From Straminergon stramineum (Eukaryota; Streptophyta; Bryopsida; Hypnales; Calliergonaceae), in NCBI GenBank assembly GCA_963920665.1, contig OY987263.1, forward strand, positions 42,505,218 to 42,569,217: a stretch of 64,000 nucleotides of DNA, in the 5' to 3' direction. The notes under the pieces were generated by a model. That model saw nothing but the letters and a program-made list of their open reading frames with translations. It was not told the origin of the DNA and searched no databases. Within the stretch, counting starts at the first letter, position 1, and each line of letters begins with the position of its first letter. Shown here piece by piece: positions 31,600-57,362 of the stretch. The position numbers and the translations under genes are program-made.

Positions 31600-32880
31600 T
31601 TTCAAAAGAATTTTGTTGTCTTAAAGAAAAGCATGTTGGAGGAGTGACCTCAAGAAGCCAAGAAGGCTATCATAGTTAGAAGAAAAGTCAATTTCCTTGA
31701 ACAAATAATTTTTCTCCCTCAAAGGGTGAGTAAAGGTGACCATGGCCGTAGAAAACTTCATCTCTTTGAATAAACAATTTTTCTAATCAAGAGGTGCATG
31801 TAGGAAAGAGTGACTGCAAGTGTAAAAAGGTCACTTCATTTAGTATACAATTTTCTCTTCTAAAGAGGTGCATGTTGAAAAGGATGATCACATGTAAAGC
31901 AACCAGACATCATGTCCTTGAATACACAACTTCATCGTTTGAAAAGGCACATGCGGGAAAGGGAAACCATGGGTAAGACAACAATGGATAGAGAAAGGCC
32001 ATTTGCTTGAACAAACAATTTTTCTCCCTCAAAAGGTGCATGCAAGAAGGGCGATTGCATGTGGGGCAAGTGTGCATAAGGCAACTACAAGTGTAAGAAA
32101 GGCCATTTGTTTAAACAAAAAAAATTCTTCCTCATAGGGTGCGTGGAGGAAGGGTGACTACATGTAAGGCGACTGTAGGTGTAAGAAAGGCCATTAGCTT
32201 GAACAAACATTTTTTCTTCCTCAAAGGGCGCATGCAAGAAGATCGACCACGTGTGGGGCGATCGTGGGTGTAAGAAAGGCCATTAGCTTGAATAAACAAT
32301 TTTTCTTCCTCAAAGGGCGCATGCAAGAAGAGCGACCACGTGTGGGGCGATCGTGGGTGTAAGAAAGGCCATTAGCTTGAATAAACAATTTTTCTTCCTC
32401 AAAGGGCGCATGCAGGAAGGGTGATTGCATGTAGGGCAACTGTATGTAAGGCGAGTGCATGTGAGGTGACAACGGGTGTAAGAAAGGCCATCAGCTTGAA
32501 CAAACAATTTTTCTTCCTCAAAGAGTGCATGCAAGAAGAGCAAATGCATGTGGGACGACTGCATGTAAGGCGACTATGGGTGTAAGATAGGCCATTAGCT
32601 TGAACAAACAATTTTTCTTCCTCAAAGGGTGCATGTAGAAAGGGCGACCACGGGTAAGGCAACTGCGGGTGTAAGAAAGGCCATTAGCTTCAACAAACAA
32701 TTTTTCTTCCTCAAAAGGCACATGCAGAAAGGGCGACCGCGGATACAAGAAAGGTCATTTGCTTATATAAACAATTTTTTCTTTTCAAGAGGCGCATGTG
32801 GGAAAAAGGCAACCGTAGGTGGGGTGACCACAGGTGTAGCAGATGTAAGAAGGAGAAAGGTCATAAAACCAAAACCTAAA
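31600..32880 (+). repeat. Central 89-bp satellite with internal 15-bp steps
   Basis: TTTTCTTCCTCAAAG starts at 32,212, 32,301, 32,390, 32,509, 32,613 and 32,702: spacings 89, 89, 119, 104, 89. The extra lengths are 30 and 15 bp, matching added GCATGTAGGGCAACT-type 15-bp units. Because 89 is not divisible by three, the repeated minus-strand open frames (RKKNCLFKLMAFLTP) shift frame at every unit and are not a gene. Confidence 0.85.
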
Positions 32881-33199
32881 GAATCAACTGTCAATCAATT
32901 TTAATAATGTGAGGAAGTGGTTGAATGGCATCTTGGGGATTCTTTGAATAGAACTGTACTTGTCAAGAATGGATATATAGACAATTTTAGGGTTTTTTAT
33001 AGGATGGATAGAGGAGAACATTGGTAGGGTGACATTGATAGAAGAAAAATTAAATCTTCTTTAAGAGATTTTTTCTCCTTCAAGAAGCATATGCAAGTGG
33101 GTAAACCATATGAGTAGCAACCAAAGAAGAAGCTACACAAAGTAGACAGAAGCCAATCTCCTTCAAAAATAAAGCATAGAGATTTAAGTGAGAATTCAC

Positions 33200-36100
33200 T
33201 CATTTATTTTTGCTATTCTCAAAGAATTGTCCAATTCATGTATTAATTGTCATGTAAATTTTACAAATTAAGAAGATATAAGATAGAGGGTTTAGATAAA
33301 AACTTTTCTATTTATTCTTTGAAATTCCTTGAGAGTCTTCCTAACAAGAGTGATTTGTCACTTTGAATATACAAATAAAAAATATGTGTGGTGATTTAGA
33401 TAAAAGCTTCCCCTATTAATTTTTGCAATTTTTGCCTTGTTCTACTAATTATTTTCTTTTGTCTTGTTGATCTTAAAAGTGAAAAATAAAGACCAAAGAT
33501 TTAGTAATTAAGATCTTTCCTATTATATTTTCAGAATTTGCAAGGAATCATCCTATTCATGTATTAATCGCCACATTGATTTTAAAAGAAAAAATGAAGG
33601 ATGAAAATTGAAGTTAGAATGCACCAATTTATTTTTTTAATTCTCAAAGAATCATACTATTCATACATTATTTGTGACTTTCATTATAAAAATAAAAAAT
33701 AAAAGGAAGAGATTTAAGTAACAATTTTCCTATTTAATTTTGTAATTCTCTAAGAGTCCTTACATTTTTGAATTATTTGTCACATTGATCTAAAATAAAA
33801 AGAAAGGGTAGAGATTGAAATAAGAACTTCACTATTTAATTTTTGAAGTTCTCCTACATTCATTCTAATCATGAATCATTTTTCTCTTTGATTTTATGAA
33901 TAAAAAATAAAGGATGGAGATTGAAATAGAAATTCCCCTATTTATGTTTTACAACTCTCCAATATTCCTTCTAATCTTGAATTATTTGTCACTATAATTT
34001 TATATATACAATGAAAAGAGTGGAAATGTAAGTAAAAACTCTCTTTTCCAGTTTTTTCAATTTTCATAGAGTCCTCATTATGAATTATTTGTCATGTTGA
34101 ATTCAAAAGTGAGAAGTAAAGGATGAAGATTTAAATAAAGACTTCCCTATTTACTTTTTGCAATTCTTCTAGAGTCCTTAATATAATACAATAAAGTGTT
34201 TGTCATTTTGATTATATAAATAATAAGCAAAAAGTGGAAACAAACTTTTCTACTTTTTTTGGCAATTCTCAAAGAGTTTTCCTCACTACAAATTCTTTAA
34301 TTGTCATGTTGATTTTAAAGTTTTAAAATTTAGGGTGTAGATTTTAGTAAGAGCTTATCCATTTAAGTTTTGCATTTCTTAAAGAATCATCCTACTCATG
34401 AATCATTTGTCATTTTTCAAGTTGATCTAAAAATAAAAATTAAATGGTGGAGAATTAAGTAAGACCTTCTTTTTACTATTTGCAATTCTCAAAGAGTCTT
34501 TCTAATCATAAATAAATTGTCGCATTGATTAAATGTAAAAAATAGAAAGTAGTGATTTGAATAAAAAAAATTCTTTGTAATTTTGAACTATTCTCTAAGA
34601 TCCCTAATAATCATAAATCATATATCATGTTGATAATAAAAATGAAAAATAAAGGGTGGAGATTAAGTAAGACCTTTTGATTTATTTTTTGACAATTCAC
34701 CAAAATTCTTCCTAATAATGAATTATTTGTCACTTTGATTTTATAGATAAAAAATAATGGGTGGAAGTTTTAGGTAAGATCTCCTCCATTTATTTTTGGA
34801 ATCTTCAAAGAATCATTCTATTCATATATTATTATTCACATCGATTTAAAAATAAAAACAAATAGTGTCCAATTAATTAAGAACTTGTCCATGTATTTTT
34901 TGCAATTCTTAAAGAATCCTTTCAATTTTGAATAGATTATCATGTTCCTTTTTTAAAGAGAAATAAAAGGTAGAGGTTTTAGTAAGAATTTTCCTATTCA
35001 TTTTTCACAATTCTCAAAGAATAATTCTACTCTAGCATGTATTTTTTGTCACTTTCATTTTAAAATAAAATATATAGGGTGGAAATTGAAATAAGAACAT
35101 GCCCAATTCTGTTTTGCAATCCACAAAGAATCATCCTTCCCACATATTATATGTCATGCTAAATTAAAAATAAATAAATAAATGATGAATATTTAAATAA
35201 AAAACTTTCTATTTACTTCTTGAAATTTTCCTAGACTCCTTCTAATCATGAATTATTTTTCACTTTTAAATTCAAAATAAATGATGATGATTTAAGTACC
35301 AGTAGTAACTTTTCTTTTTCTTTTTGCAAATTTTAATTACTTTTCATGTTGATTTTGAAAATAAAAAATGAAGGGTGGAGATTGAAGTAGGAATGTACTA
35401 ATTATTTTTTGTAATCCTCAAAGAATCAACCTACTCATGTATTATTTGTCACATTGATCTAATAATAAAAATAAAGAGTGGAGATTTAAGAAAAAACTTT
35501 TGATTTATATTTGACAATTCTCCAAAATTCTTCCTAACAATGAATTATTTGTCACTTTGATTTTATAGATAAATTTTTTGGAATCTTCAAAGAGTCATCC
35601 TATTCATATATTATTATTCACATTGATTTAAAAATAAAAATAAATGGTGGCCAATTAATTAAGAATTTGTCCATGTATTTTTTGCAATTTTTAAAGAACC
35701 CTTTAATTTTGAATAATTTGTCATATTGAGTTTAAAAATAAGAAATAATAGACAAAGATTTCAGTAAAAGTTTGAGAATTCCCCTATTTATTTTTTGCAA
35801 TTTTCAATTAAAAACACTACTCATGTATTATTTTGTCCCTTTGATTATTTTTTAATATACATGGAAGAGATTGAAGTAAGAACATATCAAATTATATTTT
35901 GCAATTCACAAAGAATCATCCTTTTGAGGTATTATTTGTCTCTATATTGAATCTAGAAAAAAAATAAAGGGTCGATATTTAAATAAGAACTTTCCATCTA
36001 TTTCTTGCAATTTTCCTAAACTCCTTCTAATCATGAATTATTTGTCAATTTGATTTTATAAATAAAAACTAACAAGTGGAGATTTAAGTTAAAACTTCTT

Positions 36101-36450
36101 CATTTATTTTTATTCAATTTAATGGCTCATTCCACTCAAGTAATATTTGTACATTGATTTAAAAATTGGAAATAAAGGATGGAGAATTAAGTAAAAACTT
36201 TAACTTTTCATTTTTGCAATTTTCCAAAACTCCTCATAATTTTATTTATTTTTCATGTTTATTTTTAAAATGAAAAATAACAAGTGCAGACTTAGATAAG
36301 GACTTCACCTTTTATATTTTGTAATTCTCAAAGATTCTTTGTAATTATGTATTATTTATCACTTGAATATTCTAAAATAAAAAATAAAGTACAAAGATTT
36401 AAATAAATACTTTCCTTATATTAATTTCAATTTGCAAAATCTCATCCTAA
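33200..36450 (-). repeat. 107-bp AT-rich satellite, right arm, about 30 inverted copies
   Basis: Reverse complement of the left-arm satellite: GGTGGAGATTTAAGTAAGAA, CTATTTATTTTTTGCAATTC, AAAGAGTC.TCCTAATCATGA, ATTATTTGTCACTTTGATTT. About 105-115 bp per unit, well diverged. Confidence 0.78.
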
Positions 36451-37100: not shown

Positions 37101-37108
37101 GATGTAGC
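37101..37108. repeat. 8-bp target-site duplication GATGTAGC, right
   Basis: Right partner of 29,375-29,382. Confidence 0.93.
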
Positions 37109-37975
37109 AGTGCAAAAGTTCAATGAGGTAACTCCATTTGAGGAAAAGAGTGACCTAGGGGTGGCCAATGCCATGAGGTCAGAGCAAGAGAGAAGGCCTC
37201 GAAGTTGATAGTCAAAACCGGGAAGTTGCTAGCTGTGGCAAACCTAGCACATGGACCTGGATTTCTTGAGGAGGTATGATTGTCTAGTTTTGACACCATT
37301 TATTATATGTTTCCGTGGTTGTCTACATAATATATTTAGTAGTAATTATTAATTATTAATTTTTTCATTTTGCAGATTGAAAAGCACTACACAACCAATG
37401 AAATCCCAGAAATGACTCTAGAGAAACTCCAAATGATTGCAACATGCAATACATCTCCATTGCAGAAGATCAAATTGTTGAAGTGGTGGAACTCCTCAAC
37501 TCCTTCTCGTAATATTAGGTGGTTCCCTACAAAACCTGTTTCAAAAGAGAAGTTGCTGCCATTCCTTAACAAATGCATTTAGTAGGTTGGTGTAAGAATT
37601 TTTGGATGTCTTGATTCTCATATCATATATGTGAATGTCTTCTCTTGAATGTCCGTGAGTCTGAATTTAATTGCATGAATTACCTTATCATTTCTCAGAA
37701 AGTAAATCAATGGAGTCTTCACGTAGGTTAAGGACGCTGTTCAAAAGTACTTTGAGAATGTGGTGTAAAAAGACAACCTTCAAATCAATATAGCAACTCC
37801 GCTTGAGCTAGAGACTCTTCCAGAGTATATTGAAGGGTGGAGGAGGAAGATATGGGAGCATGGCTTTGGTCCGGCTCTGAAAGGAGCGAATGCTTTCAAG
37901 AAGTTTGACTCCTTCTCTACATATGACAGATCAAACTTGGTAGTTTGAAGAGTTCTTTTCCGGTGTGTATGTGAA
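37109..37975 (+). pseudogene. ParB-like/methyltransferase-like gene, copy 1, continuation
   Basis: Resumes the exon cut at 29,382. Exons 37,109-37,273 (ends AHGPGFLEE|GT), 37,376-37,594 (KHYTTNEIPEMTLEKLQMIA, KWWNSSTPSRN, FLNKCI) and about 37,731-37,971 (YIEGWRRKIWEHGFGPALKG, SNLVV). Each matches copy 2 at 43.46-43.63, 43.72-43.94 and 44.08-44.31 kb. Stops: a one-base loss near 37,200, TAG at 37,579 and 37,582, TAA near 37,767, TGA before RVLF. No homology to later copy 2 exons follows, so the methyltransferase-like part is missing from this copy. Confidence 0.72.
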
Positions 37976-41134: not shown

Positions 41135-41515
41135 CAGGGTTGCTAGCGTGCGAGCTTGTGAGTGTGAGCTTGTGAGCTTGTGAGCGGGAAAAAAAGAAGT
41201 GGAAAAAACCACTAAGGTACCCATGACCGTGGATATACCTATGATTGTGAATGCATAGAATATGGAACTCCATATTAGTGAATTAATTTTTTTCTCAATT
41301 TTTTATTGACTTGTGAATTAAAGGAAAAAAAACATGGTTTGACATTTGCATTCGGTTTAGGGTTTGTTTGAAATGCAAACATTTGTCACTTGCTCATAGA
41401 GATTTAGGGTTGGGTTTAAGGTCTTTGATTCCTTATACTCTTCATCTTGGTTATTCTAATTTTTTTAAACCCCATTGCTTATTGTAATTTTTTTGCCACA
41501 CCCTATTTTTTTTAT

Positions 41516-41740
41516 CAACAACGCTAGCATGCGAGCTTGGAGCGGCGAGCTTGTGAGCTGCGAATATGGAGCTTGTGAGCATGGAGCCTCGAAAACATTA
41601 TTTTAATAAAAAAATTCCTTTCATTTTGGTTTAGGGTTGAAAAAACCAAAAAAAGAAAAAATTTTACTATTTATGGTAAATTTTGTGATCTATGACCATG
41701 TCCCCTATAACCGTGGATTGTGATATGAGTCATTTTCCAT
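41516..41740 (+). repeat. Second terminal-like module inside the left end
   Basis: GCTAGCATGCGAGCTTGGAG and GAGCTTGTGAGC words, an AAAAAATTTTACT block and CTATAACCGTGGATTGTG, repeating the order of words at 41,135-41,240. Probably a duplicated or nested end. Confidence 0.55.
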
Positions 41741-42353
41741 GGTCTTGAAATTATTAATTACGACGGGAAAAGACCTTCAAACTTTGTTGAAATGTTTGAG
41801 CATTTGGTTCAATGACTACAACAGAAAATATGGTAGACGTTGTAGGTATGCCAAATAGATGTCATTTGGAAGTAACTCTATTGTATTATTTTGACTAGCT
41901 AGATTGAATACAAAGAGTAAAGACTTCTAAATATCTCATTGCGATTGGAATTTCCAACATGCACTAGTATAAGTGGACACGTATAGGATGAGTTCCCAAC
42001 CTAAAGGTCAAGGTTACCTTATGAGCATAAGCTATTGTGGATTTGTATAGTAGACATTATTGGAGAGGTCATCATTCTTCTGAGCTCGGATTCAGAGAGT
42101 GATGTTGAGATTCTTGAGGGTTGACCAGACTTGATGTCATTTATAATTACAAATTATGCTGTATGCTAGGTGTGACCTTTGAGGAAACCATATTTTGAAC
42201 ATCTTCAGAAATTTTATTACAAGTGTTGTTTCAATTGGTCATTGAAGTGATGCGTTGGGTCCATTGCCGTGGAGTTTGGCCTTGGTATATCTCATGTACA
42301 TTTATTCTTATCCATGCCTATTTGGTCATCCTCTTTCGTGGTTGTCTTGGTAG

Positions 42354-43018
42354 ATGGATGTCTCGCCTCTGAATGTAACTCAAGATGATAGAATTGTAGA
42401 AACACCAGGGATTGATGATACTACCCAACCTGAAATCGGAGTAGAGGAAGAAGGACACCCAATGGAGGAGGATATGCTGGATGAAGAGGAGAAAGACTTG
42501 TTGGAGGATGACCTACGGAGGTTGTAGAAAGTTGACTCCGTCTCCACCATCAATGCATTGAGGATGAAGCCGGAACACATGTTCCGATTTCCGATTCCTC
42601 TTTGCCGACTTGTCGCTATGCCAATGGTGCGGCCGACTCTCTCATGCGACGTGCAATTTCTTGAGCAAGAGTTTGCATGTGGATACCGTGATGGGGCAGC
42701 AATCTTCTACGTTTCCACCACGAATGAGGCGGGCAAGACGTCACAATTCACAACACAAGAGATGGATGAATGGGACCCTCTCTGGAAGGAAAAGAATGCT
42801 ACATTCGAGGAGTACGTGGACTCACAGCCCACATTGAAATTCCTCAAGAACTTGAAGTTCTTTGTGTGGGACAGAAACCACCGACACCTGGCCTGGATGA
42901 ATGTCATCTCCAGAATGTATTCCACAAATCCCGATTGGCACTTTGCGGTAGACAACATTGTTTTGGACACCAAAGACAAAATTGAGATTGTCACGTAGGT
43001 CATGCACGACATCAACAA
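42354..43018 (+). pseudogene. Copy 2 exon 1: acidic leader and ParB-like part
   Basis: Starts ATGGATGTCTCGCC after a TTGGTAG acceptor and ends AACAA|GTGAGG. Stops TAG at 42,525 and 42,996 stand where copy 1 has CAA. Contains the DRNHR motif followed by HLAWM. Confidence 0.7.
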
Positions 43019-44534
43019 GTGAGGTCACTATTCCCACTATCATTTCATTCTCAGTTTTATACCTGAATCTCATGTTCCGGTAAACTTGCAAAATGATGTA
43101 CTCAAAGCGTGAACTTCTGACCACTATGCAGATCTATAGAGGACTCCCACGTGAAGACGAACCTGGTACATACTCTATACCGGGTGCAAAAGTATGGCTT
43201 GCTACCGATGGAAAGGTTCAATGACATGCTCAAGCCATCGGAGAAGAAAAAATGTGTGGCAATGCCATCGAGGAAGACATGGTACACCATGCCGGCTGAG
43301 GTCTTCACCTCATTCGTCTTCAGGGTGAGATACACATTCTTTATATACGTGAAGTACTCAATTGGAATCTTCTTTGGTGTTCTTGTGCTTCTTGCCCATC
43401 CAATTTCCTCACAATATACTCTTGGGACTCCACAACAAGAGATTGCACAAGCAGCAGATGCGGCGCTTCGAAGATACCACGAGACAACACCAGCTGATGA
43501 AAAGAGTGCTGAAGGAGCAGCTCATGCCATGAGGGTAGGGGCCAAGGAAAAAAACATGAAGTTGTACGTGAAAATGATCAAGTTCCTGATAGTGGCCAAT
43601 CCTGCTCACGGGGCGGGCTTCCTTGAAGAGGTGAGTCCTCATGTTCATGAAATCATGCCAATAAAGTATCTAGGTTCGGATCTACCTATACAATCATGAC
43701 TCAATTCATTCATGGTAATGCAGGTGGAGAGGCATTAGAGCTCCAATGAGGTGTCAGAGATGACACTCGAAAAATTGCAAATGGTGGCCACGTGCAACAC
43801 TACGGCAGAGCACAAGGTGAAGTTCTTGCAGTGGTGGAACTCCTCCATCCCATCTCGTGATGCGAGGAAGTTCCCAACCAGGCCAGTCTCCGAAACACAC
43901 CTTGGCCCTTTCTTGAACAAGTGTGTCTAGTTTGCGGGGGTAAGTGCCTCAGCCGACTTCATTTGTTGATTTCCACGGTTTCGTTATGACAATCGATTAT
44001 AACATGTCTCAATTCGTAATGTCTCTTTATTCTTCATAGTGGACTGAAACTAATTATTGGGATCATCAATTCGTGTAGCTCGAAGATGCCGCAGTGGAAT
44101 ACTTCGAGGCGGTCGTCAAACAAGACAACATCAAGATCGACATGAAGGTCTCGCTCCAACCGGAAACCTTGCAAGAGTACATCGAGGGATGGAGGAGGAA
44201 GATCTGGGACCAAGGATTCCATCCTTACTTGAAAGGAGGAAATTATTTCAAGAAGGGGGATTCCTTTACGAATTCTGAGGGGTCCAACTTGGTGGTTAGG
44301 AGGGTTCTCTACTGGTATGTTCTTAGACCTATGAGATTGGAATTAGTTTGGCAACAACTCATTTCTTCAAATTCTGATGTGTGCATGATAAAACCCTTCA
44401 AAACATCTACTTCTGTCACATTGAATGAGATGGAATGTGGATGGTTGTGAAACTCCATTGTATGTGATGAGCTCGTAGACGTTGTTGTAGTCATGTCTCT
44501 AATTGCCTAGAATGATTGATTCTGCTTTCCACAG

Positions 44535-45261
44535 CTATTTCAAGTATGAGCTCAAAGTAAAGGGTGCCATTGAAAAGAAAGACTTGCCTCCCTTCCTAGC
44601 GTCATGGTTGGACCGTAGCTCAGGGGACTGCATGTTCTCATCAAACCAACTACGCACTTTTACCACGGCTCACCTCAGTGGAGGAGCATGGTACTTGGAC
44701 TGTGCACCGGCATTCACTCATCCGTCCGAGGTGCAATTGCGAGCATCGTTGGATGGCAAAGGGGCCATAGACTTGAATGTGGATGAGTTCACAGGAATGA
44801 CGGACAGGCAAAAGAGGAAGGCCATTGCCAGGAGGGAAGCCAATGACCAAAAAAAAGAGGCCCGTTTTCAAGCCCTTCTCACCGCCAAGGAGAAGAAGGA
44901 AGCTGAAAGACTTGCCAAGATGGCGGAGAAGGAGAAGGAGAAGGAGATGGAGAAAAAAGAAAAGGTCAAGGCCAAAGGGAAGAAAAAGGCCTCGGGTGAT
45001 GGCTAAGTCCCAACATCCTCCATGGTGGATCAAGGCTCCGAGCTACAAGTCGGATCGCAAAGTGGAGTGAAGAGGAAGGCCACCCTCTCACAACTCACGG
45101 AGGAGGTCATCACTCATGTGACAAAGGCAATCGTTCTCAGTGACAACGAGTTGGACACGTCTGAGAATCTCATTCTGAACATCTCCATTGACGACCTTGT
45201 GGATGACATGGAGTCCAAGACAAAGACATGGTACAAAGAAGTCATGGACTTCTTGAACAAG
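44535..45261 (+). pseudogene. Copy 2 exon 6: conserved block and Lys/Glu-rich helix
   Basis: YFKYELKVKGAIEKKDLPPF, then SSNQLRTFTTAHLSGGAWYL, DEFTGMTDRQKRKAIARREA, and a long charged segment that would form a coiled coil. TAA at 45,004 interrupts the frame and sits where CAA is likely ancestral. Ends AACAAG|GTATGC. Confidence 0.68.
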
Positions 45262-45367
45262 GTATGCATGTCTCTTGGGATTTGAAAATACGGTCATAAG
45301 TTCTCATTCAAATGGTTGTACTTTGAGTTCATTTATTGTCATTATAGGTTGCACTATGCCTTTGCAG

Positions 45368-46397
45368 GTGTCGGCGGGGAGACCATCCATGTTCCATGGT
45401 GTCCCTAAAGCTAGGCCAGGGGTGGATGTCATGTTCTTTGACTGTCCGGAGAACTTGCCCATGCCTGGGCTGTCTTCTCCGCCACATGTGGTGCCAGATT
45501 GGAACGAGGACGTGGGAGTTGAAGCTCTATAGTCAGCCTTTAGCTTTGCTTCCAATCATCTCCAAGACCACGGCTGCATCATAGACTTCCATTCGTGGAG
45601 TGCCAAAGCAAAGTCGGATATTGCAGGGTTGTGTGAAACATATGACATGGTCAAGAAGAAGGAGTGGATGGGGATGAACCGCATGCACTTGACCTCGGCC
45701 ATTGACAAAACCAAGATGGTAAATTACATTCCATTTCTGCAATTCCAAATGGCAATTTCACATGCATTACTTTCATCGCATTGCTCATGATTCTACACCT
45801 ATTTTGGATGATTGTGTAGGCATAGAAATTTGGAATCACCTTGGTGGTGAAGGACTTGGGCACGAAAGGGAAATCCAATTTCTCTTTCAAGCGCACTACC
45901 ACGATGGTGAAGGCTGGTGTCGACATCGCACGGGACGACATACTAATGAACTACACCCATCCAGATGACATGGCCATGGATGACAGGAAGCCTTGGTGTG
46001 GGGCTCACGAAAAAGATCCATGGTTCTTTCAAATCCTCCTTGAAGCTACCAACGTCCCAGGAGATCTGATTCTTGACTGCACCACATCTACAGGTCAATA
46101 TTCAATTATACTACTCTACCTCCCAATTGTAACCAAACTACAATTTCAGTCTCTCATATTATATTTTTAAATTTCTGTACCTACAGGTGCATCCATTGTC
46201 GCTTGTCATGGCACGGGCCACCACATTGTGGCTTTGGAGGAGAACAAGGACATCTTTGAGGCCATCCTCAAACCCATGTGGAAGTCCACTACTGCCAAGG
46301 AAGTGACGCTATAGCCTCCAATATTTGCAATTTCGCAAGATCCAAATACTATGCCCGTGGTGCCTCGCAAATTCATTCGGAAGGGAAAATTGAGTAA
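45368..46397 (+). pseudogene. Copy 2 exons 7-9: methyltransferase-like core
   Basis: Three exons (45,368-45,718; 45,820-46,093; 46,187-46,397) with motif-IV-like DCPE and motif-I-like DCTTSTGAS, the latter split by an intron after its ACAG. The usual DPPY/SPPW is not kept, so catalysis is doubtful even before the TAG stops at 45,530, 45,823 and 46,312. Confidence 0.66.
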
Positions 46398-47155
46398 GTA
46401 AGTAGGCACTTTTTTAATTCTCTGTATACATGATGCCTTCTACCTTTCAAAACTCTAACGTGGTGACATTTCTATTTGCAGTCATCGAAGATTGATGTCA
46501 CCTGATCCAATGATGAAGAAACAAAGTCTTCTATGTAGTCCAGAGAAGACATACGAGCTTCCAATCTATGCCAACCAAATGGCAACAACCTTTGTGGATT
46601 TTGGTTGCTCCAAACCAAAACGCCGTAAAGACACGTACGCTCTAAATGTCTTACAGTTCATAGATGGGTTTGCATCTGAGGGTAGAGAATCTTTAGATTC
46701 GTCCAAGTCCTCCAAATCCGCGACCGACTGTACTACGACTTAGACTCATGAAATTGACATATCTCATGAGTCGTGCTATTGTGTATTGTTTTCTATTATG
46801 ATTGGATTTGTGTGTTTTATGGCTATATCTTGGACATGCGTTCTTCTAATTCTTATTTCCTACTATAAGAATTTCATCTATGTGAAATACATTTTGTTCT
46901 AGAAAACCCTTCAATCAAATAAAGGGGTAAGCGCTTTGAATTTTGCGGAAAAAACTCTACATTCTTTGCACTTTTTACTTTCTCATGTCCACGGTCATAG
47001 GTCCTTCAGCCATTTTTTCGCGCAAAAAAATTTCTTACTCACAGGCTCACATGCTAGCAACCCTGCCATTTGCTCCACGGAGGCAATCCTTTCTTGACTG
47101 AAGATGAGCATCCACGTGTGGACACCCCTCGACATCCCGTTCTTGGAAACCTTCC

Positions 47156-50000
47156 TCAGCTATTCGAGGACCATTGTGTGCCCGTGATTGACCTCCATCT
47201 TTTCCAATCTCGGGAACAATCGGAAGTCCATGATTCCGACCTCGCAATATTTGATAGAGGCCGGTCCCGACTCATAGAGGGTCCACCTCTCCCTTTGGAA
47301 GATGTACAACTGCGGGTCGAATGTCGAACTCTTGTGAACCCACTTGCACATTGACCCCGCAAACATTTGCGACAGTTTTGGAACCGTTGAGTATTGTCCA
47401 TGACGCGGTCCAAGGCCTCCAAGAGCTTATTAGGCATGTCCATGGGTTTCTTCCTCGACTCGCACTCGTTCCTCAACCACTTCTGATCAACTTGCATGAG
47501 GTGCCACATGTAGAACCTGGTAATGCACAACTCTATCTTCAAATCTTGCGAAGCTGTCGGAACAAAGTCCCTGTCGTCAAAAATGTCCGCCGCCTCAATG
47601 ATCCCATCCTTGATCCCCCTCTCCGTAATTTCCTTCACCAGAACAATCTTGTGTTTCTTGTTCGTGGTCCACATGGCGAACGGAATGGCCTCGGTCCAAC
47701 TTGTAGGCCTTTTGATGTAGACCTTCGGTAGAATCTCGAGGATTTTGTTGCCAAGCTCACCCACTACAGCATCGTCCAGTCTGGCCAGAGTCTTCATCTA
47801 GTTCAAATTGATGGGCGTGAAATTGTAGACCTTCGTGGTGCCCGCCTTATCTGTTATTTTGTTGAATGGATGGCTGAAGTTGATGTCATATAGACCACCA
47901 GACTCATGCTTCATGAAAACCTCCTCCCAAATAGACCACATTCAATCATAGGTCATTATGATCTTCCTCTCCCCCATCTTGTCAAAATCGATGACCTTCC
48001 TCGAACCGCCAGCCCCCTTCGCAGTAATCATCAATTCGAAGCTCTGTTTGACCTTCATTTTGAAATCTTGTGCACAATTCGGGAACATCATAATTCATCT
48101 TCATATAAAGGTTCAGACCACGCGGTCTGAATCAAGAAATTCTAGTGCAAGTCCTTCATGACAACGAACTGGACTATTACCACAACAACAATGAGGTGAA
48201 CTTCAGACTGCGCGGTCTAAAACAAGAAACTCTAGTACAAGTCCATCACAACTAACTGGGCTATTAGAACAACAACAATGAGGTGAACTTCAGACCGCGC
48301 GGTCTAAAACAAGAAACTCTAGTACAAGTCCACAATGAACTGGGCTATTAGAACGACAATGAGGTGAACTTTAGACCGCGCAGTCTGAAGTGGTTAAGGA
48401 ACATACCTCGTAGGATTTGTGCATCTCTTCTTGTTGGGATGCTCTTATGTTCTTCCGATGTTGCGAAGGTCTATTGGCGTTCTCCCAGAGATGGCAGCAA
48501 TGCATTATGGTTGTGGGCAGCGATGATAAATATGGACCGGTGACATTCCTGTCGTTGCATTTGCATGATAATGCATGTAAGTAGTCTTTATTGTCAGACC
48601 ACACAATCTCGCATGTCCACTTCTGCATCTTCTCGATGATCGCCACATCATCAACTGACGTCTCGCCCAAAATGATTTCCTTGGCTACCATCCACGTGTG
48701 TTGACCATTGATGATTTTCAAAGCCCCGACCGCAGTGCACTCCTTCCGGCAGATTGGCCTTGTTTTCTTATCGGGCATGACTGTCAGAATCTACTTGGTG
48801 AAGTTGACCTTCACCATTCAATCAAGTACAGCAATGACCCCAACCTTCTCCAACGGCCGAAAAATGATTCCCGACTTTTTGTCCGCGTTTATCATGTCCC
48901 CGACGTCCAACTCGAAACATCAGCCTCATCCAAAGATGTACATGTACGACGATGCTTCTTTGAACTTCCGATTGGCTATCGCTTCGGCCTTTAGGCACCG
49001 TCGCGTTTCAACTTCCTCACTACGTTTCGGGTTCGGCTTGAACTCGATTACTATGGATAGCTTGTCTGGTACGTCCGCGGAGTTAAATGGTGCGGTCGTT
49101 GGGTTGTCCACCCATTTTCCGTTCACTTTTTTGAAGGCCAGCTTTTGTGCCTCTTCCTCCGACACCTCGGTGGTTTCAGTGAATGCCAACTGATTTGAGG
49201 GGCTTGGCACACCTTGTGAGCCCGAGGGCTCCATGGGATTACACTGTTGTCTAACCCATCTCTTCACCCCTTCCTCTTCAGTGGCCAGCGAATTCCCAGC
49301 GGTTGATGATGGCTTCCTCTTTCTTGTCTTCATCTTATCTCTTGCTTTCATTCGGACAGGTTGCATTGGTGCTACACGAGTAGTCGGTGTCGTGATTTGG
49401 GGATTGGCCTGCCACCCTCCTCGTGGCTACATTGTTGACTATTGGGGGGCTCCGATGTCTGCAGCACCTACAACAGTTGACACAGGCGATGGATGACTGC
49501 GCGTCGAGACCCCGAGCTGGAGCCTTCGACCCCTTTCTGCTTTCGAGCACTCTCTTCTGCGTCCATTCCTTTTTTCCCCTTCAACTATGAAATGTTCAAT
49601 TTCCCCATGGTCAGTCTTGCGGTATGGAGAGTGCTTGCATCAGTTAGGTACATGCTTACCACTTTTCCAGTCTCATAAAATTCATCAGCTGTACTTTCAC
49701 ACTTCGCTTGGATGTCGAGCATGAGGATTTGGAAGGTGTGGGGAACATGATCGTAGTTTTTCATAATGCGCTGGTGACAGAAAGTCATTTGGTCTTCAAC
49801 TTGGATGACGATGACTCCGAACGCATTATTACTGGAGTTTATAACATCCACTAGAATAGCTTCTCGTAGTGCATAAATATTAACTACTACTAAATTCTTG
49901 AACGATTTCCATCGTGGGTCGCCGGCTTTTGTAAAACCTATTTCTAGACTAAAGACGGGAGAGTTGTGAAGATAACTCATTTCTATTGACCACAACGGCT
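47156..50000 (-). pseudogene. Second ParB-like (NGQHT) decayed gene, tail-to-tail with copy 2
   Basis: Minus-strand pieces in order: 49,995-49,585 (PVFSLEIGFTKAGDPRWKSF, FGVIVIQVEDQMTF); 49,366-48,890 (Lys/Arg-rich start, then WVDNPTTAPFNSADVPDKLS); 48,890-48,371 (FELDVGDMINADKKSGIIFR, MPDKKTRPIC, GALKIINGQHTWMVAKEIIL); 48,090-47,156 (MKVKQSFELMITAKGAGGSR, MWSIWEEVF, LDDAVVGELGNKILEILPKV). The order 'conserved I..P block, then V.P, then INGQHT..A' resembles ParB/DGQHR-type domains. Stops: TGA and TGA near 48,920, TGA near 48,820, TAG near 48,795, TAG before MKTLARL at 47,798. The gap 48,105-48,395 holds the palindrome array and is likely intronic. Family assignment is tentative. Confidence 0.55.
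48105..48395. repeat. About 87-bp tandem repeat carrying a 20-bp palindrome, four palindromes
   Basis: Palindromes at 48,112-48,131, 48,202-48,221, 48,289-48,308 and 48,370-48,389; consensus TTCAGACCGCGCGGTCTGAA. Spacers are nearly identical (AACAAGAAACTCTAGTACAA, AACTGGGCTATTAGAACAAC, AATGAGGTGAAC). Lies in the presumed intron of the minus-strand ParB-like gene. Confidence 0.92.
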
Positions 50001-50845
50001 TTGATGCGATGAATTCTAATGGAACCTTGTCATCGATGTGGGACGACCAGGATTCGTGAATTCTCTCTCGCGAAATCCTTCGGATGTATCCTGTTAGAGG
50101 CTATGAGGCTTTTCCACCGCAAGGTGAAGAAACCCCCTAGAGTTGGCCGGCGGGGAGTGTATGAGACACCTACCTAGATTGCCTTCCAAGCAATGGACTC
50201 CTAAATGTTTTTTTATCAATTTTTTAAAATTAAACTACTCTAAGTGAAATGAGGGTAGTACCCTTACACCATCCTAAGATGCACCCTAAAATCCTCCAAT
50301 GACCCTAATACCTACTTTGGGAGATTAGGGCAACCTACTAGGCCTAATTTTGCCTAAAATTAACCCTTCGGGCACCAAATGGGTCAATTTGGTGTCCTAA
50401 AATTAAATTCCAGCACACCACAACCACCCCAATTCCTAACTAACTTCCTACATTGATGCCCAAGACTTCCCTAATTCCATAGATCCCATCCCTAACATAT
50501 TCACCCATTCTTTTTAGGCCAATTAGTTTCTTCCTTCAATTTCCTAATCCATATCCTAACCCTAATTTTACCCCCAATTTGGGCAGCGCTTCCGCGCTTC
50601 CGTGCTTGCCCTAAAACCCTAAAAAATCCTTATAAACCCTCTACACATTCACACCCCACAAGAACATTGCATGCAAGTCATTGAACTATTGCTTCAATAT
50701 GGATAAGAAAGTATTATATTGTAATTAACATTACATTTGGATTAAGCTGAATCACAAGGAAAAAAAAAGATGAAATACCCAAAATCAACTGCCGCTAGAT
50801 GGGCAGTAGACCTTTTCCCACTAAAATGATCGACCTGACTTTGTC
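50001..50845. other. Spacer, no gene recognised
   Basis: Starts with a GC-richer strip (CCGCAAGGTGAAGAAACCCC) and passes into C/T-rich sequence with CCCTAA words. A TTGCCTTCCAAGCAATGG word near 50,180 recurs near 63,085. No coding signal. Confidence 0.5.
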
Positions 50846-50846
50846 C

Positions 50847-51150
50847 TTACTCCAAATTAGGTGAGACTTGTCTCATTGAAAAGCTGACTTTGCCATCTTT
50901 CTCCTCCCCAAAATTCACGTTGATCCGCTTTGCCGAACTCCTATAGTCGCTCGCCAAAGTTGTCAGTCTTCTGTGGTGGAGGCAGCTTGACCTCCTCGCA
51001 CTAAATCGGCCGCTTCGTCCTCGTCCTTTCTCGGAATTGGTCGAGATTGGTCTTGTTGGAAAGCTGACTTTCCCCTCTCCATCCTCCCCAAAATTCAGTT
51101 CATTCCGCTCTTTCAATCTCCCGTAATCAATCACCAAAGTTGGCAATCCC
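50847..51150 (-). repeat. Two-copy tandem duplication of about 185 bp with an open frame
   Basis: Minus-strand open frame of 99 codons has two related halves: LNFGEDGEGKVSFPTRPIS and VNFGEEKDGKVSFSMRQVS, each after an (A/V)xDYxxxxxRxN block. At DNA level AAAGCTGACTTT..CCTCCCCAAAATTCA occurs twice about 185 bp apart. Not recognised; may be a duplicated fragment of a host gene. Confidence 0.6.
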
Positions 51151-52157
51151 CTCTCAATTCAACAAAAACCTAATTCTCTCCACTCCAATTCCCATTTGAC
51201 CTCACTCCCATCAATCCTTCACCACTTTTTCTCAAAAAATGGTGACCTACTCGACAAATTGTCCTACTTTGGTTCCCTCATCTTAGTCTCTAGCTTCTCA
51301 TGCTTTCAAAACGCCCTTCATCACCAAGAATGCTCTCTAACACACATGCACACCAAGTTGGGAAAATTTGAGAGAGTTGAGAGAGAGAGGGCTCTAAACC
51401 CTAACTTTACCTACATCTAACTTTCTAACAGATTACTTTTCTAAACTACTTTCATCCTACACTACTTCACTGTTAATCCACTAATTTGGTGCAAAATGCG
51501 CCAAATTAGTGCAAATCGCGCTAGGTTACTGTAAATCCGCTAATTTAGTGTAAATTGCTCTATTTTAGTGTTCCCCCCCTTAAATTACTGTAACATCCTC
51601 TAACTTACTGTAAAATCCTATTTTTGTGTTTTTAGCACTATTTTAGTGTTTTATCCACTACGCTAGTGTTTTAGTCATAGTTTAAGTTTAACTAACCTCT
51701 TTTGTGTTTTTTCTTATTTATTATTTTTGTGGTTTTTAATTTACTTTTAGTTTCATTTCCTATTTCTAGTCTTTTGTTTTCATTTTCATTTTTTCATTTT
51801 TTGTTTTCATTTTCTCATCATTTTACCGTTAGCCTAATTTGGTTACTCTACCAAATCTTGCTTAACCTCTTTTTAATTTTAACTCCCCATTTTTTCCCTA
51901 GAATTTCCCCTAATTTCCTCCCTATTGCATTTTCTAGAATCTTGCCCTAACCTCTTGAAGTTTCCATTACTATCTAGCGGAAAACTCCTTAATTGATGGT
52001 TATGGCTTAATCCGGAGTACTAACACTTCTGGATTTGCAAATTCATGCCTAATGTTTATATTTTGAGGTTTTTTAATAGTGAACCAATATAGTGGTTCAC
52101 AAAGGCGGCTTGCTCTCCAGGAAGGACTCCATGGCACTATCCACAGTAATGGATTTG
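51151..52157. other. Pyrimidine-rich spacer, no gene recognised
   Basis: A GA-repeat near 51,370-51,392, a stretch of TTAGTGTAAAT / TTACTGTAAAT words (51,460-51,690) and a CT/T-rich tract (51,700-51,960). No coding signal. Confidence 0.5.
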
Positions 52158-52249
52158 ATCAGACCGTGCGATCTAAAGCAATGTTTACAATGTTCAATAT
52201 GTAAGCTTCTTGAGCAGATATAGCATTGTTTCAGACCACGCGATTTGAA
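52158..52249. repeat. Spaced palindrome array, left part (two palindromes)
   Basis: ATCAGACCGTGCGATCTAAA at 52,158 and TTCAGACCACGCGATTTGAA at 52,230. Continues at 58,751 beyond the CACTA insertion. Confidence 0.85.
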
Positions 52250-52328
52250 CTTCACTTGAGATGATTGTCATTCCACACCTCATTTCTTTTCCTGCAATGT
52301 GTATGAAGACCCTATTCTTCTCGTTTAA

Positions 52329-52331
52329 GTC
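52329..52331. repeat. 3-bp target-site duplication GTC, left
   Basis: GTC before CACTACAAG and again after CTTGTAGTG (58,750-58,752). Confidence 0.85.
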
Positions 52332-52359
52332 CACTACAAGAAAATGGCCAAATATGTGA

Positions 52360-54490
52360 CTGTAGAAGAATGACTGCAATACAGTTGTTTTGGAGTCATT
52401 CGACTCAGAAATGACTTCACAGCTCTGGAGTCATTGTTGTTCAGTCGTTTACGTAAATGACTGCGGGTGTATTATCACCATCCATTTTTGCCTTGGATGA
52501 AAAAAGGATGATAGAAATACATGTGGAGGCTGAGTTAGAGAGGGCGTGTGTTCGGCACATGCCCAAATTGGATGATGTGGCAATCGCTGATTGGTTGTGG
52601 TCGGCCACGTGTCCAGTCATTTACTAGTCATTCTTCAATGACATGGCTTTGTTGGCAGTCATGAAGAAGTCATTTTCTAGTTGCAACAGACCCATTAGAA
52701 ATCTGACGTGGACAGCCACGTCAAAAGTCATCATGCAGTCGTTTAGAAGTTGTGATGAAGTGATTGTATCATTTTGGTGCACTAGCACGTGGCAAATTAT
52801 ACGATATTCTTTCTTAAGTGACATGTATTTAGGATTCAATACCCTCCCTTAGATGTGGGAAGTCATTTTCTTGTTATTTACAAGTTACAATGTGTGTAAA
52901 AAACAATATAATGACAATTGGGCAAAAAGTAGTCATTCAACAATCACATATTAATACATTCAAAGTTCCAAAGAAATACACTATACACCATACAATACAC
53001 CAAACATAGAATACCATACACTAAACACCATACTTGGCACAAGTGTCACTAAGCTTGTCAGGCCAAGTAGTGGGTTGGCATGGAATGGTCAAGTGACAAG
53101 ACTTTTATATATTTTGGGTGGTAGGAAGCAAGACAAACCATGTGGGATTTGTAAAACGCAAGAATTGTGTTACAAGTAATATTTCAAACCTCATTTAGGC
53201 ATAAAAGATTAATTTTTTTCAAAATACTCTGAACATATAAAAGTTGGAAAATCAATGTCACTTTCATCTCCAAAAATTTGTTTTAGATTTTGATCCTCTA
53301 ATCAAAAGTTATGGACAAATTTGGGATAGGTATTAGAAAAGACATTTTCTTTGACATTTTTTAACATCCTTTTTGAATTTTGTCCATCCTTGTCATATGT
53401 GTCAAATATGAAAACGTGCTATAGATGTAGAGTAAGTGTAATGAAAGGTATGCAAGATGTTTGGAAATTGTGTAGTGCATCACAATAGACAAGGCATTGA
53501 AGTGGTAGTAGAGTAGGTGTGTAGTAGTCTGAGACATTTTGAACTCATTCTGTAGTCCTAGGTAGTCATTTTGCAGTCTTAGGAAGTCATATTGAAGTGA
53601 CAACGAAGAAGCAAAATTATTGTCTATGTAAAGGGGAAACGGGACTTAATGATTGCCTTTAGCTCATTAAAATACCTTCATGTAAGTATGTTGGAACCTC
53701 TAAATGTTAATTTTCATTCACTTTAACTATCCGGAAGTAGTATATAGATAATGACAAAAATGGATAGAAATTATTGCTTCCATACTAGTAGGAATTTAAA
53801 TGAACCTTAAAGTTTACCCTAACTAAGAAAATAATATACACCGACAAAGCAAAGAGGTCATTCAAAATGCATGATTTCAAAGAAAATGAAAAAATAATTT
53901 TTTTTTAAAGATAAACAAAGAGTAGAGAATTTAGAAAGATAAAAAAGCTTCAAAGAAATGAAGATGACAAGAGAAGAGGAAAAAAGGAAGAAAAATTCAT
54001 AAGAAGTAAAAGAAAAAAAGCTTAAAGAATATAAAATACAAAAAAGGGAGAAATAATAATAATTTTTTTAAATAAGTTGAAGAAAATTACAATTAATGAA
54101 ATAGATAAGTGAAGAATTAAAAAAAAGAGGATAAAACAGAAGAAAAGGGAGAAGAAGAGAAAAACAAGGGTAGTGGTTAGCTTGGGCCTTGGGGTACCTC
54201 AAAAGGTTGTCTTAACTACAATGTTAGCCCACTCCCATGTGTTAAACGACCTCATCTTTTAAATATAATAAAGTATAATTTTACAAAATGAGGTTTGAAC
54301 TACCTAGATTGATAATGTATCAAGGGAAAAAATTCATCTCAATCAAAAAATTTTTAAAACTTTTAATGAATTTTTTAGTTGAAAAAGTAAGTTTCGTCTT
54401 ATATACATAAAATCTTCAATAATAGGCATTTGGGAATATCAAATAATTTTATTTTTATATGATTTTTGGATATGACTTATATTTAGTGGT
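52360..54490. other. CACTA left part, no gene recognised
   Basis: Subterminal repeats followed by AT-rich sequence with purine-rich A/G tracts at 53,880-54,180. No transposase motifs. Confidence 0.55.
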
Positions 54491-54495
54491 TCAAT
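54491..54495. repeat. Target-site duplication TCAAT, left
   Basis: TCAAT before TGTCGCAGCAT and again at 57,879-57,883 after CGTCACA. Confidence 0.92.
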
Positions 54496-55753
54496 TGTCG
54501 CAGCATAGAGCAAGTAAATTCCCTGTTATACTCACAAAAATCACCCTAGAGCATAACAAAGTGACTCTAAAGATCGAACCCACAAGATTCTGTGAAGTAT
54601 TTACTTTAATTAAGCGAGTAAGCTTTTCTATCCTCTAAATCTTCCTTTCCGGTCCTAGATCTAAAACCGGAACCCAACAACCACTAGATCGTTTTGGACA
54701 GGATTACTTCCTTCCCGATTCCAAAACTACCCGGTTTCCACAATTACTCCAATTCCAGGACTTTATCTACTTCTGGTCCTGGCACTCCTCTGGACCAATC
54801 CGTTTGGGATTGTCCTTTTGTCTCCTCACTCCTATTCCGGTTTAATTTTGCCTTCGTTGGACCATTAGAGGGGTTGCCACTTGAGTTTGTGAGTGGTAGG
54901 CCCACCATTCCTTCCCTGGATTATAGTGGCTAAAGGACCACTGGTCTATCTCCCCTATTCCTACTCTAACTCAGATCCGGTTTGATCCCTCACAACAACC
55001 TAGACATCAATCCCGTTTGTAAGTCACACAGAGATCCCCCGTATGATCCGTTCTTACTACAACGACCTCAATGCCAGCTCCTACCTATGCGAAGCTAGGT
55101 GGTTACAAGTGTACTCATCCGTTCCAACAAAAACTAGAATTATTCCATTTACCAACTAAGGTAGTGAGACCTCTTAGAAGATCAGACACTCGACCGGATT
55201 TCCCATCCAGGAGTTCTAGCGCGACTAAGGATACCCTCCCTATCCGCCTAGCCTAACAAAGGCTATCTCACCCGGAACTCACAACCCTAGATCTGTTGAG
55301 GCACTGAAGTCCATTCCCAACACTTACACAACCCACTTACACACTAAGGATCGGAAACTATCGCACCAAGGGGAGAGATCAAGTCACAAATCTACCCTAC
55401 ACCTTCCTAACTCTACATCATGCACACTTGCCAAGCTTGGAAGACACACACAAAACAAGAACACATACAAGGTAGTTACAAGGAATTTGCAAAAAGAAGA
55501 CTCCCAGTACCCCTCGCGGGCCTGACTTAAATACAAGTCAAAAAGTACAAGTGGGCGAAATTGCCTGCAAAAGTTCCGCCATGATTTGGGTCGGATTTTT
55601 CGCTTCCTACCTACTCCTAACCGGATCGAAACAGGATCCGTATCTGTTCCTAACCTACCTACTATTTACAAACTAGACCCCCACCCGAGATCCGATGGTA
55701 GCACTATCCGCTCCTAGATCCATCTGCTCAAATATCTCGTTCAAGTTCCAATT

Positions 55754-56566
55754 CTACTCCCCCTCTTGAGGATTTGGAATCTGTTCGCCTTCTGTGGATC
55801 CTGGAGTTGAATCTAAGTCGATGGCGGTTCCGAGCATATTGGCCTGAGTCATCCTAACCTCCGATCTCTTAGACTTGGGGGTCACATCCTTCCCCTCTCC
55901 TACTGTGACGTCCGGAAACAAATCCGGAAGAGATAGTTCCGAGAGTCGAATACCGTGAGAACAAGTTGCTCCTGACAGTATCCAGGTACTCTCCTCCATC
56001 CAGTCCGCTGCCTTCCGCGCTTCCATCATTGCCGCTTCTACCTGCTCGACAAAGTCTGTGAGAATCCTCACCATCCGGGAACTGGATGGCTTCTTCTCTT
56101 TGTGTACCTTCTCATCAAACAGCTTCGCTTGGGCGGCAGCCATTCCGGTCTCCCCGAATGTGGCCTTCACCCCCTCCACCATCTTCTGAGACTCTTCCAC
56201 CATAGATCGACCGGTTGCAAAGTTGTCCTTGAGGACAAGGAGTTCCGCTTTTGTTTGATCCAACTCCTCCTGCAGTCTTCGGATTTCCGCTTCTTGTTTC
56301 CGGGACTCAATTGGATTGGAAATGCAGTTGGCTACCTTCTCCGGTAGCTCTCTGTCGGGGGCTGCTCCTACCAACTTTCTGATCGAGAGCAGGATCCTCC
56401 TCTTCAGCTCCCAATTCGTCCTCACGTCGCACAAGATTTTGACGAGAGGGTTGAACGGGTCGTCAGGATCCGATTCTTTCGACACTGTCTTTTCAACTTC
56501 TGGTTTTTCTTCCGGGGCTGAGGTATCACGAGCGGGTGGCGTCCCCCGCTTGTTGGGAGAGGTCAT
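55754..56566 (-). CDS. LTR-embedded coiled-coil ORF, copy 2, C-terminal part (270 aa)
   Basis: Continuous 270-codon frame: basic KRGTPPARDTSAPEEKPEVE region, PLVKILCDVRTNWELKRRIL, KLVGAAPDRELPEKVANCIS, coiled coil EAEIRRLQEELDQTKAELLV, then an acidic tail DLDSTPGSTEGEQIPNPQEG. It is the part of the longer ORF between a TAG at about 56,574 (Q in copy 1) and the end. Copy 1 has two stops inside this stretch that copy 2 lacks. Family unknown; a gag-like or accessory structural protein is one possibility. Confidence 0.55.
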   Translation of the reverse strand: MTSPNKRGTPPARDTSAPEEKPEVEKTVSKESDPDDPFNPLVKILCDVRTNWELKRRILLSIRKLVGAAPDRELPEKVANCISNPIESRKQEAEIRRLQEELDQTKAELLVLKDNFATGRSMVEESQKMVEGVKATFGETGMAAAQAKLFDEKVHKEKKPSSSRMVRILTDFVEQVEAAMMEARKAADWMEESTWILSGATCSHGIRLSELSLPDLFPDVTVGEGKDVTPKSKRSEVRMTQANMLGTAIDLDSTPGSTEGEQIPNPQEGE

Positions 56567-56936
56567 CTTCTATTGCTTGATGAGCAGCATAGCCAGTTCC
56601 TCCTCCTCTAACTCGTTGTTCTCCTCAAGCTCGGAACCAGATTCCATCTCCTCATTTGTTTCCGATTCTCCGTACTTGAGGAGAACTTCCTGAGCCTTCC
56701 ACGCCTTCTCCTCACCTGCACTCAGGAATTAGTGGAAATGGTAGAGATGGATAAGGTAGGGACACACCGAAGTGGCCCTACTCTTCCCCACTCTACCTAT
56801 GAGTTGGGCGACTAGATCGAAAATGATCTGGGCCTAGTCGACTCTCCGGTCTCCTTGCAGAGTGCCGAAGATAGTATTGGCGAGGGAGATAGTCACCCTC
56901 ATCGACTTTTTCTGGATGTAGGATCGGAACTAAAAA

Positions 56937-57362
56937 CTACAGCAGCCAGCGCTGTTGCTCATCGATGTAGTCCTCCACCGCATATCCGTCCTTCGGGTTG
57001 ACAGCACCCTGGATCTTCCCGCGGACAAACTCATCCTTCCAGCTCGCCATTCCTAGCCCTCCTGACTGGAAACTATAGACTGCTCTCCAAACATTCTCCA
57101 TCCAAAGATGAGGAACCGCTTTTAGAGTGTTATCAAACTCATTGGACAGTTTGCCCAAGAGTTCTCTTACTATAGAATCCTCTCTGAAGCCCCAGGGTTT
57201 CTCTGCAAATCCTAGGCAGCTCATGGAACTTAAATCCTCCATGAGTTGGGACTTGGTTGGTTCAGTCGAGGGAACAACTGGAATTACCTTCCGAAGCTTT
57301 ACCTCCACTAAGGACGTACTAGCATGTCCACCTCTACTTCTCCTAAGCTGTGGCATGGACAT
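56937..57362 (-). CDS. LTR-embedded ORF, copy 2, N-terminal part (141 aa)
   Basis: Starts MSMPQLRRSRGGHASTSLVE about 250 bp after the TATA box; contains GFAEKPWGFREDSIVRELLG and GGLGMASWKDEFVRGKIQGA. It ends QQRWLL at a TAG where copy 1 has CAG. An extra base near 56,907 then shifts the frame relative to the C-terminal part. So in copy 2 the ORF is in two pieces. Confidence 0.55.
   Translation of the reverse strand: MSMPQLRRSRGGHASTSLVEVKLRKVIPVVPSTEPTKSQLMEDLSSMSCLGFAEKPWGFREDSIVRELLGKLSNEFDNTLKAVPHLWMENVWRAVYSFQSGGLGMASWKDEFVRGKIQGAVNPKDGYAVEDYIDEQQRWLL

Follow-up and report, generated by a model that had tools for sequence, protein, structure and literature searches.

The window (the whole stretch of DNA analysed, 64,000 nucleotides) contains a ten-exon gene (gene A), parts of a further copy of it (copy 1) and a second repeated gene (gene B) with arrays of palindromes, one of which is split by a CACTA-type element; the coordinates are compiled in Table 1.

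Table 1. Features of the window, in order of position
Feature	Position	Strand	Remarks
Third related piece	5526–5998	+	similar to portions of the left module
Copy 1 of gene A, exons 1–2 and start of exon 3	28275–29400	+	
Copy 1 of gene A, exons 3–5	37101–37968	+	other DNA, containing tandem repeats, lies between these and the rest
Module left of gene A	41135–42060	+	opens with the right end in inverted orientation (29 nt 90%, 35 nt 77%)
Upstream exon remnant of gene A (GEVIILLSSDSESDVEILEG)	42062–42121	+	read by eye
Gene A	42354–46743	+	ten exons, spliced frame 1,122 aa, nine internal stops
Gene A, exons 1–4	42354–43018, 43132–43324, 43436–43630, 43724–43939	+	spliced frame
DRNHR motif	42870–42884	+	residues 173–177; ParB/Srx-like box by motif only
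Gene A, exons 5–7	44040–44314, 44535–45261, 45368–45718	+	spliced frame
Methyltransferase-like domain, exons 7–9	45368–46311	+	DCPE at motif IV place, DCTTSTGAS at motif I place
Gene A, exons 8–10	45820–46093, 46187–46397, 46482–46743	+	spliced frame
Right end of gene A unit (...GCTAGCAACCCT)	46985–47065	+	shared stop of similarity
Gene B, second repeated gene	47066–52132	-	broken; interrupted by gene A unit
Gene B, exon 2	~48060–47066	-	frameshift; cut by gene A unit
Four 20-bp palindromes, gene B intron	48112–48389		spacing 90, 87, 81
Gene B, exon 1	50100–48407	-	NGQH at 48698–48709
Gene B, start piece	52103–52132	-	read by eye; inserted DNA after it
Upstream palindrome array of gene B	52158–60103		at 52158, 52230, then 58789 to 60103
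CACTA-type element (ends CACTACAAGAAAA)	52332–58749		3-bp target duplication GTC

Splicing of gene A yielded one reading frame over ten exons, as an earlier note on this DNA had stated; all nine introns have GT..AG ends except at the acceptor of exon 3 (AA), and the exon order is the same in copies elsewhere in the host genome. The internal stops are eight TAG and one TAA, beside 3 CAG and 29 CAA codons, and the frame is closed by a TAG (46741–46743). A reassigned code (TAG = Gln) was ruled out by three exons of the window's resistance-type gene, which contain 30 CAA, 5 CAG and no TAG. Across the whole window CAG is scarcer than expected (observed/expected 0.51), and the TAG excess in gene A is attributed to C-to-T decay at CAG. 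A TIR domain of the resistance-type gene is also present in the window. A protein database search with gene A gave no match at E ≤ 10 among 7,990 scored candidates. Judged from its sequence, gene A in the window is a decayed, 5′-truncated copy of a transposable-element gene. Three genomic copies (L047, L048 and L050) have an open stretch upstream of the gene; in L048 it ends with EVIILLSSDSESDVEILEG, and its last residues are still present in the window as the upstream exon remnant. The similarity of L047 and L048 to the window copy starts at 42061 (left cut of gene A), and right-hand similarity ends at 47065 (L047), 47064 (L048) and 47066 (L049); left of L047 and L048 lies a common repeat, arranged in different orders. 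Terminal inverted repeats had been considered as the ends of a single 5.9-kb element; this reading was abandoned since the similarity of L047 and L048 breaks off at 42061, and a target duplication for this supposed element was looked for and not found. Part of the left module (41646–42058) is seen again at 5588–5998. Alongside gene A no transposase was found.

Copy 1 retains exons 1–2 (28275–28924 and 29045–29237) and, about 8 kb beyond them, exons 3–5; exons 6–10 were not found within the window. Over exons 1–2, 162 of 280 residues are identical to gene A and pN/pS is 0.31 (bootstrap 0.25–0.37); over exons 3–5 pN/pS is 0.27. Searches of the host genome (326 Mb) with exons 7–9 returned at least 247 matches at E ≤ 0.01, a lower bound with 150 of 1608 candidates scored; exon 7 was counted by hand at ~120 places among the matches listed and was free of stops in 22 of the 30 best matches. 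Over five overlapping pairs of copies, pN/pS was 0.17–0.36 in exons 7–9 and 0.18–0.32 in exons 1–5. Gene A thus stands beyond chance, given the low pN/pS between the window copies and the 247 exon matches in the genome. It belongs to a large, very abundant family of transposable-element genes, on which purifying selection acts, also in the methyltransferase part. None of the five copies compared exon by exon is free of stops.

In the C-terminal part, DCPE lies in exon 7 and DCTTSTGAS spans exons 8 and 9. The domain was aligned by hhalign to a methyltransferase profile that had been selected independently of gene A (92%, E = 6.9e-7; score reached by 0 of 100 shuffles), with residues 14–241 collinear to columns 18–223 and motif IV before motif I, in the order read earlier from the letters; with a profile built from YhdJ relatives only, the value was 3.7%. 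A tblastn search with the domain at E ≤ 10 hit 226 phage records (best 0.007) vs 5 for the reversed domain, and 17 of the 20 listed phage records are named DNA methylase or methyltransferase. All six PHROGs matches were methyltransferases (reversed sequence, 0), and conservation against the profiles was best in the motif I half. PF01555 (N6_N4_Mtase), which the earlier note had proposed as a check, was not matched above the Pfam cut-off by the window and gave 0 matches in the host genome, the best score being that of L052 (13.5 bits vs a cut-off of 26.7). Sequence comparison relates the C-terminal part to beta-class N4/N6 DNA methyltransferases; this relation and the 247 exon matches agree with the eukaryotic, intron-bearing, element-borne relative that had been proposed. 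Like the bacterial and phage PF01555 enzymes (YhdJ among them), the domain is collinear, with DCPE in place of their DPPY and DCTASTGAS or DCTTSTGAS in place of DPFxGSGTT.

Members with DPPY, which were to be sought, were not seen in the host genome: neither DPPY nor an aromatic residue at the last place of motif IV occurs in any of 34 copies. Among the 30 best copies (window copy included) motif IV reads DCPEN in 18, with D in 30 and E in 28. Because DPPY is absent from all 34, DCPE is read as a family trait and not as a defect of the window copy, and decay of this copy is set aside as its source. An altered motif IV alone is no proof of lost catalysis. Protein A may instead still methylate, with motif IV altered, and mark its own element, as would suit the purifying selection on the domain, the retained D (30/30) and E (28/30), the well-conserved motif I half and the suggestion of the Ectocarpus authors that proteins of this type bind the transposon encoding them and modify it (PMC12477816). 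We consider this doubtful, given DPPY and a last-place aromatic residue in 0/34 copies, a family motif I without the usual GxG (DCTASTGAS) and the bdelloid N4CMT, in which a change of SPPY to APPA is described as abolishing methylation (PMC8885841).

Near the N-terminus the (D/R)NHR motif was found where it had been noticed, with DGNHR instead of DRNHR in copy 1, as had been read, and in L047, L050 and L051. NHR is invariant in five aligned copies, L048 and L052 being omitted from this alignment (exon 1 broken, or its match ending before the motif). DGNHR fits the GxxR-type box of the ParB/Srx domain. No ParBc match was obtained in Pfam for gene A of the window or other copies. PDB searches with the N-terminal part gave no match for a five-sequence profile and unrelated matches only for a two-sequence profile, with no ParB among the profile matches, and the fold model of exon 1 was of poor quality (pLDDT 38). 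The best hint was DUF1015, for copy 1 alone (E 0.0044, 16.4 bits vs a cut-off of 25.8); for the N-terminal piece of gene A in the window Pfam returned a HisK-N-like hit at 0.045 instead. The ParB-like region claimed earlier was thus confirmed neither by a profile nor by the fold model, and the putative ParB assignment comes from the NHR motif.

The Ectocarpus transposon Sola1-1_Ec32 is described as carrying a 1,104-aa ParB-methyltransferase protein (PMC12477816), so element-borne proteins of this kind are already known. By description, gene A resembles it in being element-borne, in its ParB-like part, in its C-terminal N4/N6 methyltransferase-like part and in size (1,122 aa, truncated). Sola1-1_Ec32 belongs to a brown alga and bears a transposase on the other strand, whereas gene A is of a land plant, is labelled ParB by motif only and has no transposase found with it. 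A Marchantia 4mC methyltransferase, active and with no added domains as cited in PMC8885841, likewise shows a bacterial-type N4 methyltransferase relation in a land plant; unlike it, gene A is element-borne and has an altered motif. Novel are the substitution in motif IV, the number of copies reached in a plant and the palindromes. As far as the searches show, element-borne ParB/methyltransferase-type proteins extend from algae to a land plant, at >100 places, and selection is indicated to keep the fold while the catalytic motif is replaced, by which the role of such domains in transposons becomes testable.

Overall, the best explanation (probability about 0.5) is that gene A is a decayed accessory gene of an abundant element, whose NHR part and non-methylating fold serve that element. 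What gene A is by identity is highly probable; its role in anti-silencing or element maintenance is proposed tentatively. The NHR part would be a ParB/Srx-type domain and, with the long middle part, would read DNA or partner proteins; the methyltransferase fold, with the aromatic residue of DPPY gone, would no longer methylate and would serve as a platform binding DNA or a cofactor. Protein A would then act for its own element, in trans on its copies, by sequence-specific protection (anti-silencing) or maintenance. That it is transposition machinery (a recombinase partner or unusual transposase) and not an epigenetic factor is unlikely: the high copy number, the many open exons and the absence of a known transposase domain from the protein (Pfam, PHROGs) would fit, but we know of no methyltransferase fold that cuts DNA, and a transposase may lie in the undelimited left part of the element. 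A domesticated host gene, which the earlier note had allowed and which the nine stops and the high-copy family do not support, or an arrival with an endogenous giant virus is very improbable, since despite introns of eukaryotic kind and the bacterial-type domains that large DNA viruses also carry, there are the ~120 exon-7 places, no hit for any of six peptide patterns among 2.9 million viral contigs and 0 of 9 window pieces viral-looking in a Pfam scan.

Beside this accessory gene, gene B offers a possible target sequence. The 20-bp palindrome of gene B copies (TTCAGACCGCGCGGTCTGAA) is present upstream and in the intron, is perfect in 8 of 10 gene B loci and is kept between copies that share only about half of their protein residues; the CACTA-type element is inserted in the upstream array. 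Gene A loci yielded no repeated palindrome. Gene B was rejected as a methyltransferase (hhalign of its parts 14.2 to 19.3, C-terminal shuffles reaching 18.9) and, for want of any match, as a gene A paralog; against ParB it matched only phrog_723, for 2 of 10 members (best E 0.013; reversed-sequence noise 0.0094). In Arabidopsis VANDAL elements, which code for the anti-silencing VANC proteins, tandemly repeated short motifs are described from the upstream regions and introns of element genes (PMC5735166). The gene B palindromes are similarly placed, and here too the protein is coded by an element. The palindromes belong to gene B and not to gene A. VANC, to our knowledge, has no methyltransferase fold. 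The palindromes are a concrete candidate binding site for bacterial-type DNA-binding proteins that may guard or maintain plant elements, and the pair of genes may show self-recognition by jumping DNA. As a speculation that we rate below the proposed role of gene A, prokaryote-type DNA-marking proteins of plant elements may have become readers, A as a fold lacking its catalytic motif and B by binding the palindrome, in a parS-like self-recognition serving anti-silencing independently of VANC. A variant form of the palindrome also occurs within a long open frame, where it is read as repeats of D-Q-T-A-R-S-D.

The ten exons of gene A (the gene joining a ParB-like motif to a methyltransferase-like region) could be spliced into a single frame, as named in the earlier note; this frame is 1,122 residues long and interrupted by nine stops. 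Exon 3 has an AA acceptor, the sole one of this kind; the stops are mostly CAG to TAG changes, and the genetic code is standard. CAG was depleted window-wide (0.51 of expected) and likewise (0.34) in the resistance-type gene, a pattern suggestive of prolonged decay at CHG sites. Within the DNA that parts the second copy of gene A (copy 1), tandem repeats spaced about 89 nt and about 105 nt apart lie at 31992–36380.

Positions of genes and gene fragments in the window
Feature	Position	Strand	Remarks
Resistance-type gene	230–4022		TIR match exceeds its Pfam cut-off, those to NB-ARC and LRR do not reach theirs; these matches are the basis for reading the host as a land plant
Third piece	5526–5998		Similar to the module left of gene A
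Second gene A copy (copy 1)	28275–29400 and 37101–37968		Split by other DNA; exons 6–10 missing
Gene A	42354–46743	+	Ten exons
Gene B	47066–52132	−	Decayed; breaks off at the start of the gene A unit; carries IINGQHTWMVAKEI

Single-sequence searches of gene A against Pfam and PDB gave no match, and none was found among 5.8 billion proteins; more sensitive comparisons of its methyltransferase part were mutually consistent. With this domain as query, 226 phage records scored E≤10, the best of them 0.007, and 17 of the 20 listed were named DNA methylase or methyltransferase; the reversed domain gave 5 records. Of 37 plasmid records 25 were listed, and 23 of these bear the name DNA methyltransferase. 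In PHROGs six families were matched, all six methyltransferases (E 0.0013 to 0.055), and zero with the reversed domain; the same region of two copies elsewhere in the genome matched six families (L047, best E 0.00065) and three methyltransferase families plus one of unknown function (L052). NCBIfam gave CcrM (0.089). For profile comparison, YhdJ, the phage enzyme Twil51 and nine phage enzymes found by Twil51 were combined, picked independently of gene A; in the source phage of Twil51 the adjacent gene had matched gene A. Against this profile the domain scored 49.0 (probability 91.9%, E 6.9e-7); the reversed domain scored 13.0, no other part of gene A exceeded 14.9, and 0 of 100 shuffles reached the score (maximum 27.1). 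A profile from YhdJ relatives only gave 3.7%, its score of 24.5 being reached by none of 60 shuffles (maximum 22.9). A mixed profile, which included members that had themselves matched gene A, gave 94%. At the position of DPPY gene A reads DCPE. A protein of the same kind is described from Ectocarpus in an excerpt of PMC12477816, where green and red algal cases are cited; no land-plant report was found in the literature searched, which does not prove that none exists.

The PF01555 profile had zero matches in the host genome (326 Mb, 59 contigs). Exons 7–9 of gene A gave at least 247 exon matches there, a lower bound because 150 of 1608 candidates were scored, with several matches possible per copy; about 120 exon-7 places were counted by hand among the matches listed, and the matched exon was stop-free in 22 of the best 30. 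Motif IV in the 30 best copies, the window copy included, read DCPEN (18), DYPEN (3), DCLEN (2), DYLEN (2) and, once each, DCSEN, DCLVN, DFPEN, DSPEN and DCPKN, so that D was kept in 30/30 and E in 28/30. From a later set of six stretches, two duplicated copies already counted and four were new (DYLEN, DFQEN, DCQEN, DCPQN); as all 30 best copies and the four new ones read otherwise, DPPY was present in 0 of 34. NHR was invariant in five aligned N-terminal sequences. In five overlapping pairs pN/pS was 0.18–0.32 for exons 1–5, 0.20–0.38 for exon 6, 0.17–0.36 for exons 7–9 and 0.40–0.56 for exon 10. Given these low ratios and the 0/34 count for DPPY, selection maintains the methyltransferase-like domain of gene A without the canonical motif. 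None of the five copies compared was wholly intact over the matched exons; each held at least one stop.

By sequence comparison the right end of the gene A unit is placed at 47064–47066, because the similarity of three close copies stops there; in L047 the bases past this end, read by eye, look like leucine-rich repeats. On the left the window copy is cut at 42061, and in L047 and L048 (a further copy) similarity continues past this point into an upstream open stretch, then tandem repeats and other repeats in differing orders. Neither a left end of the element nor a transposase was found. Repeat blocks at 12651–16017 and 54493–57878 are 90–97% alike and about 41.8 kb apart, and related blocks lie near L047 and L048 in differing orders. 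The upstream exon of L048 and window 42062–42121 carry VIILLSSDSESDVE, which we take to resemble a SUMO-interacting motif; a similar stretch is present in the copy L050.

For gene B, scoring 140 of the 296 candidates in the genome gave at least 142 matches, and stop-free open stretches of 620 aa occur in three loci (L056, L057, L060). Distant relatives share 21–34% identity; seven of eight fetched were used, and INGQH was invariant in their alignment with three gene B copies, which is partly built in because open frames were chosen by the [ND]GxH motif. No ParB was detected in gene B by Pfam or PDB. The family phrog_723 was matched by the window piece (E 0.0014), the open exon (0.027) and two of ten members (best 0.013); the reversed window piece reached 0.0094, as noise, against a family of unknown function. 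These comparisons weakly suggest that gene B may be a ParB. Among the matches listed, distant relatives look crowded on contig C11 (17.4 Mb), possibly, as a guess, a repeat-rich or sex chromosome.

A 14-bp palindrome core had 16 matches in the window at ≤3 mismatches versus 0.24 expected. In ten gene B loci the 20-bp palindrome had 4 to 11 sites each at ≤4 mismatches (mononucleotide shuffles, 0 to 0.05), upstream and in an intron, and was perfect in eight. L066 (47–53% protein identity) had 11 sites, two of them perfect, and L065 (L057 with longer flanks) had 20; four sites of L066 and three of L065 are variants such as ATCAGACCGCGCGGTCTGAT within long open frames, presumably exons, reading D-Q-T-A-R-S-D or near. 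The perfect 20-mer occurred 209 times in the genome (backward-read control, 0). The core at two mismatches was found in 0 of 8 2-kb stretches of distant gene B relatives, and no palindrome was found in the gene A loci examined. Common descent accounts for part of the recurrence; that diverged copies hold the palindrome in several types of position suggests a binding site. Its placement is similar to that of the targets of VANC, the anti-silencing proteins of VANDAL elements, which in Arabidopsis sit in introns and upstream according to an excerpt of PMC5735166.
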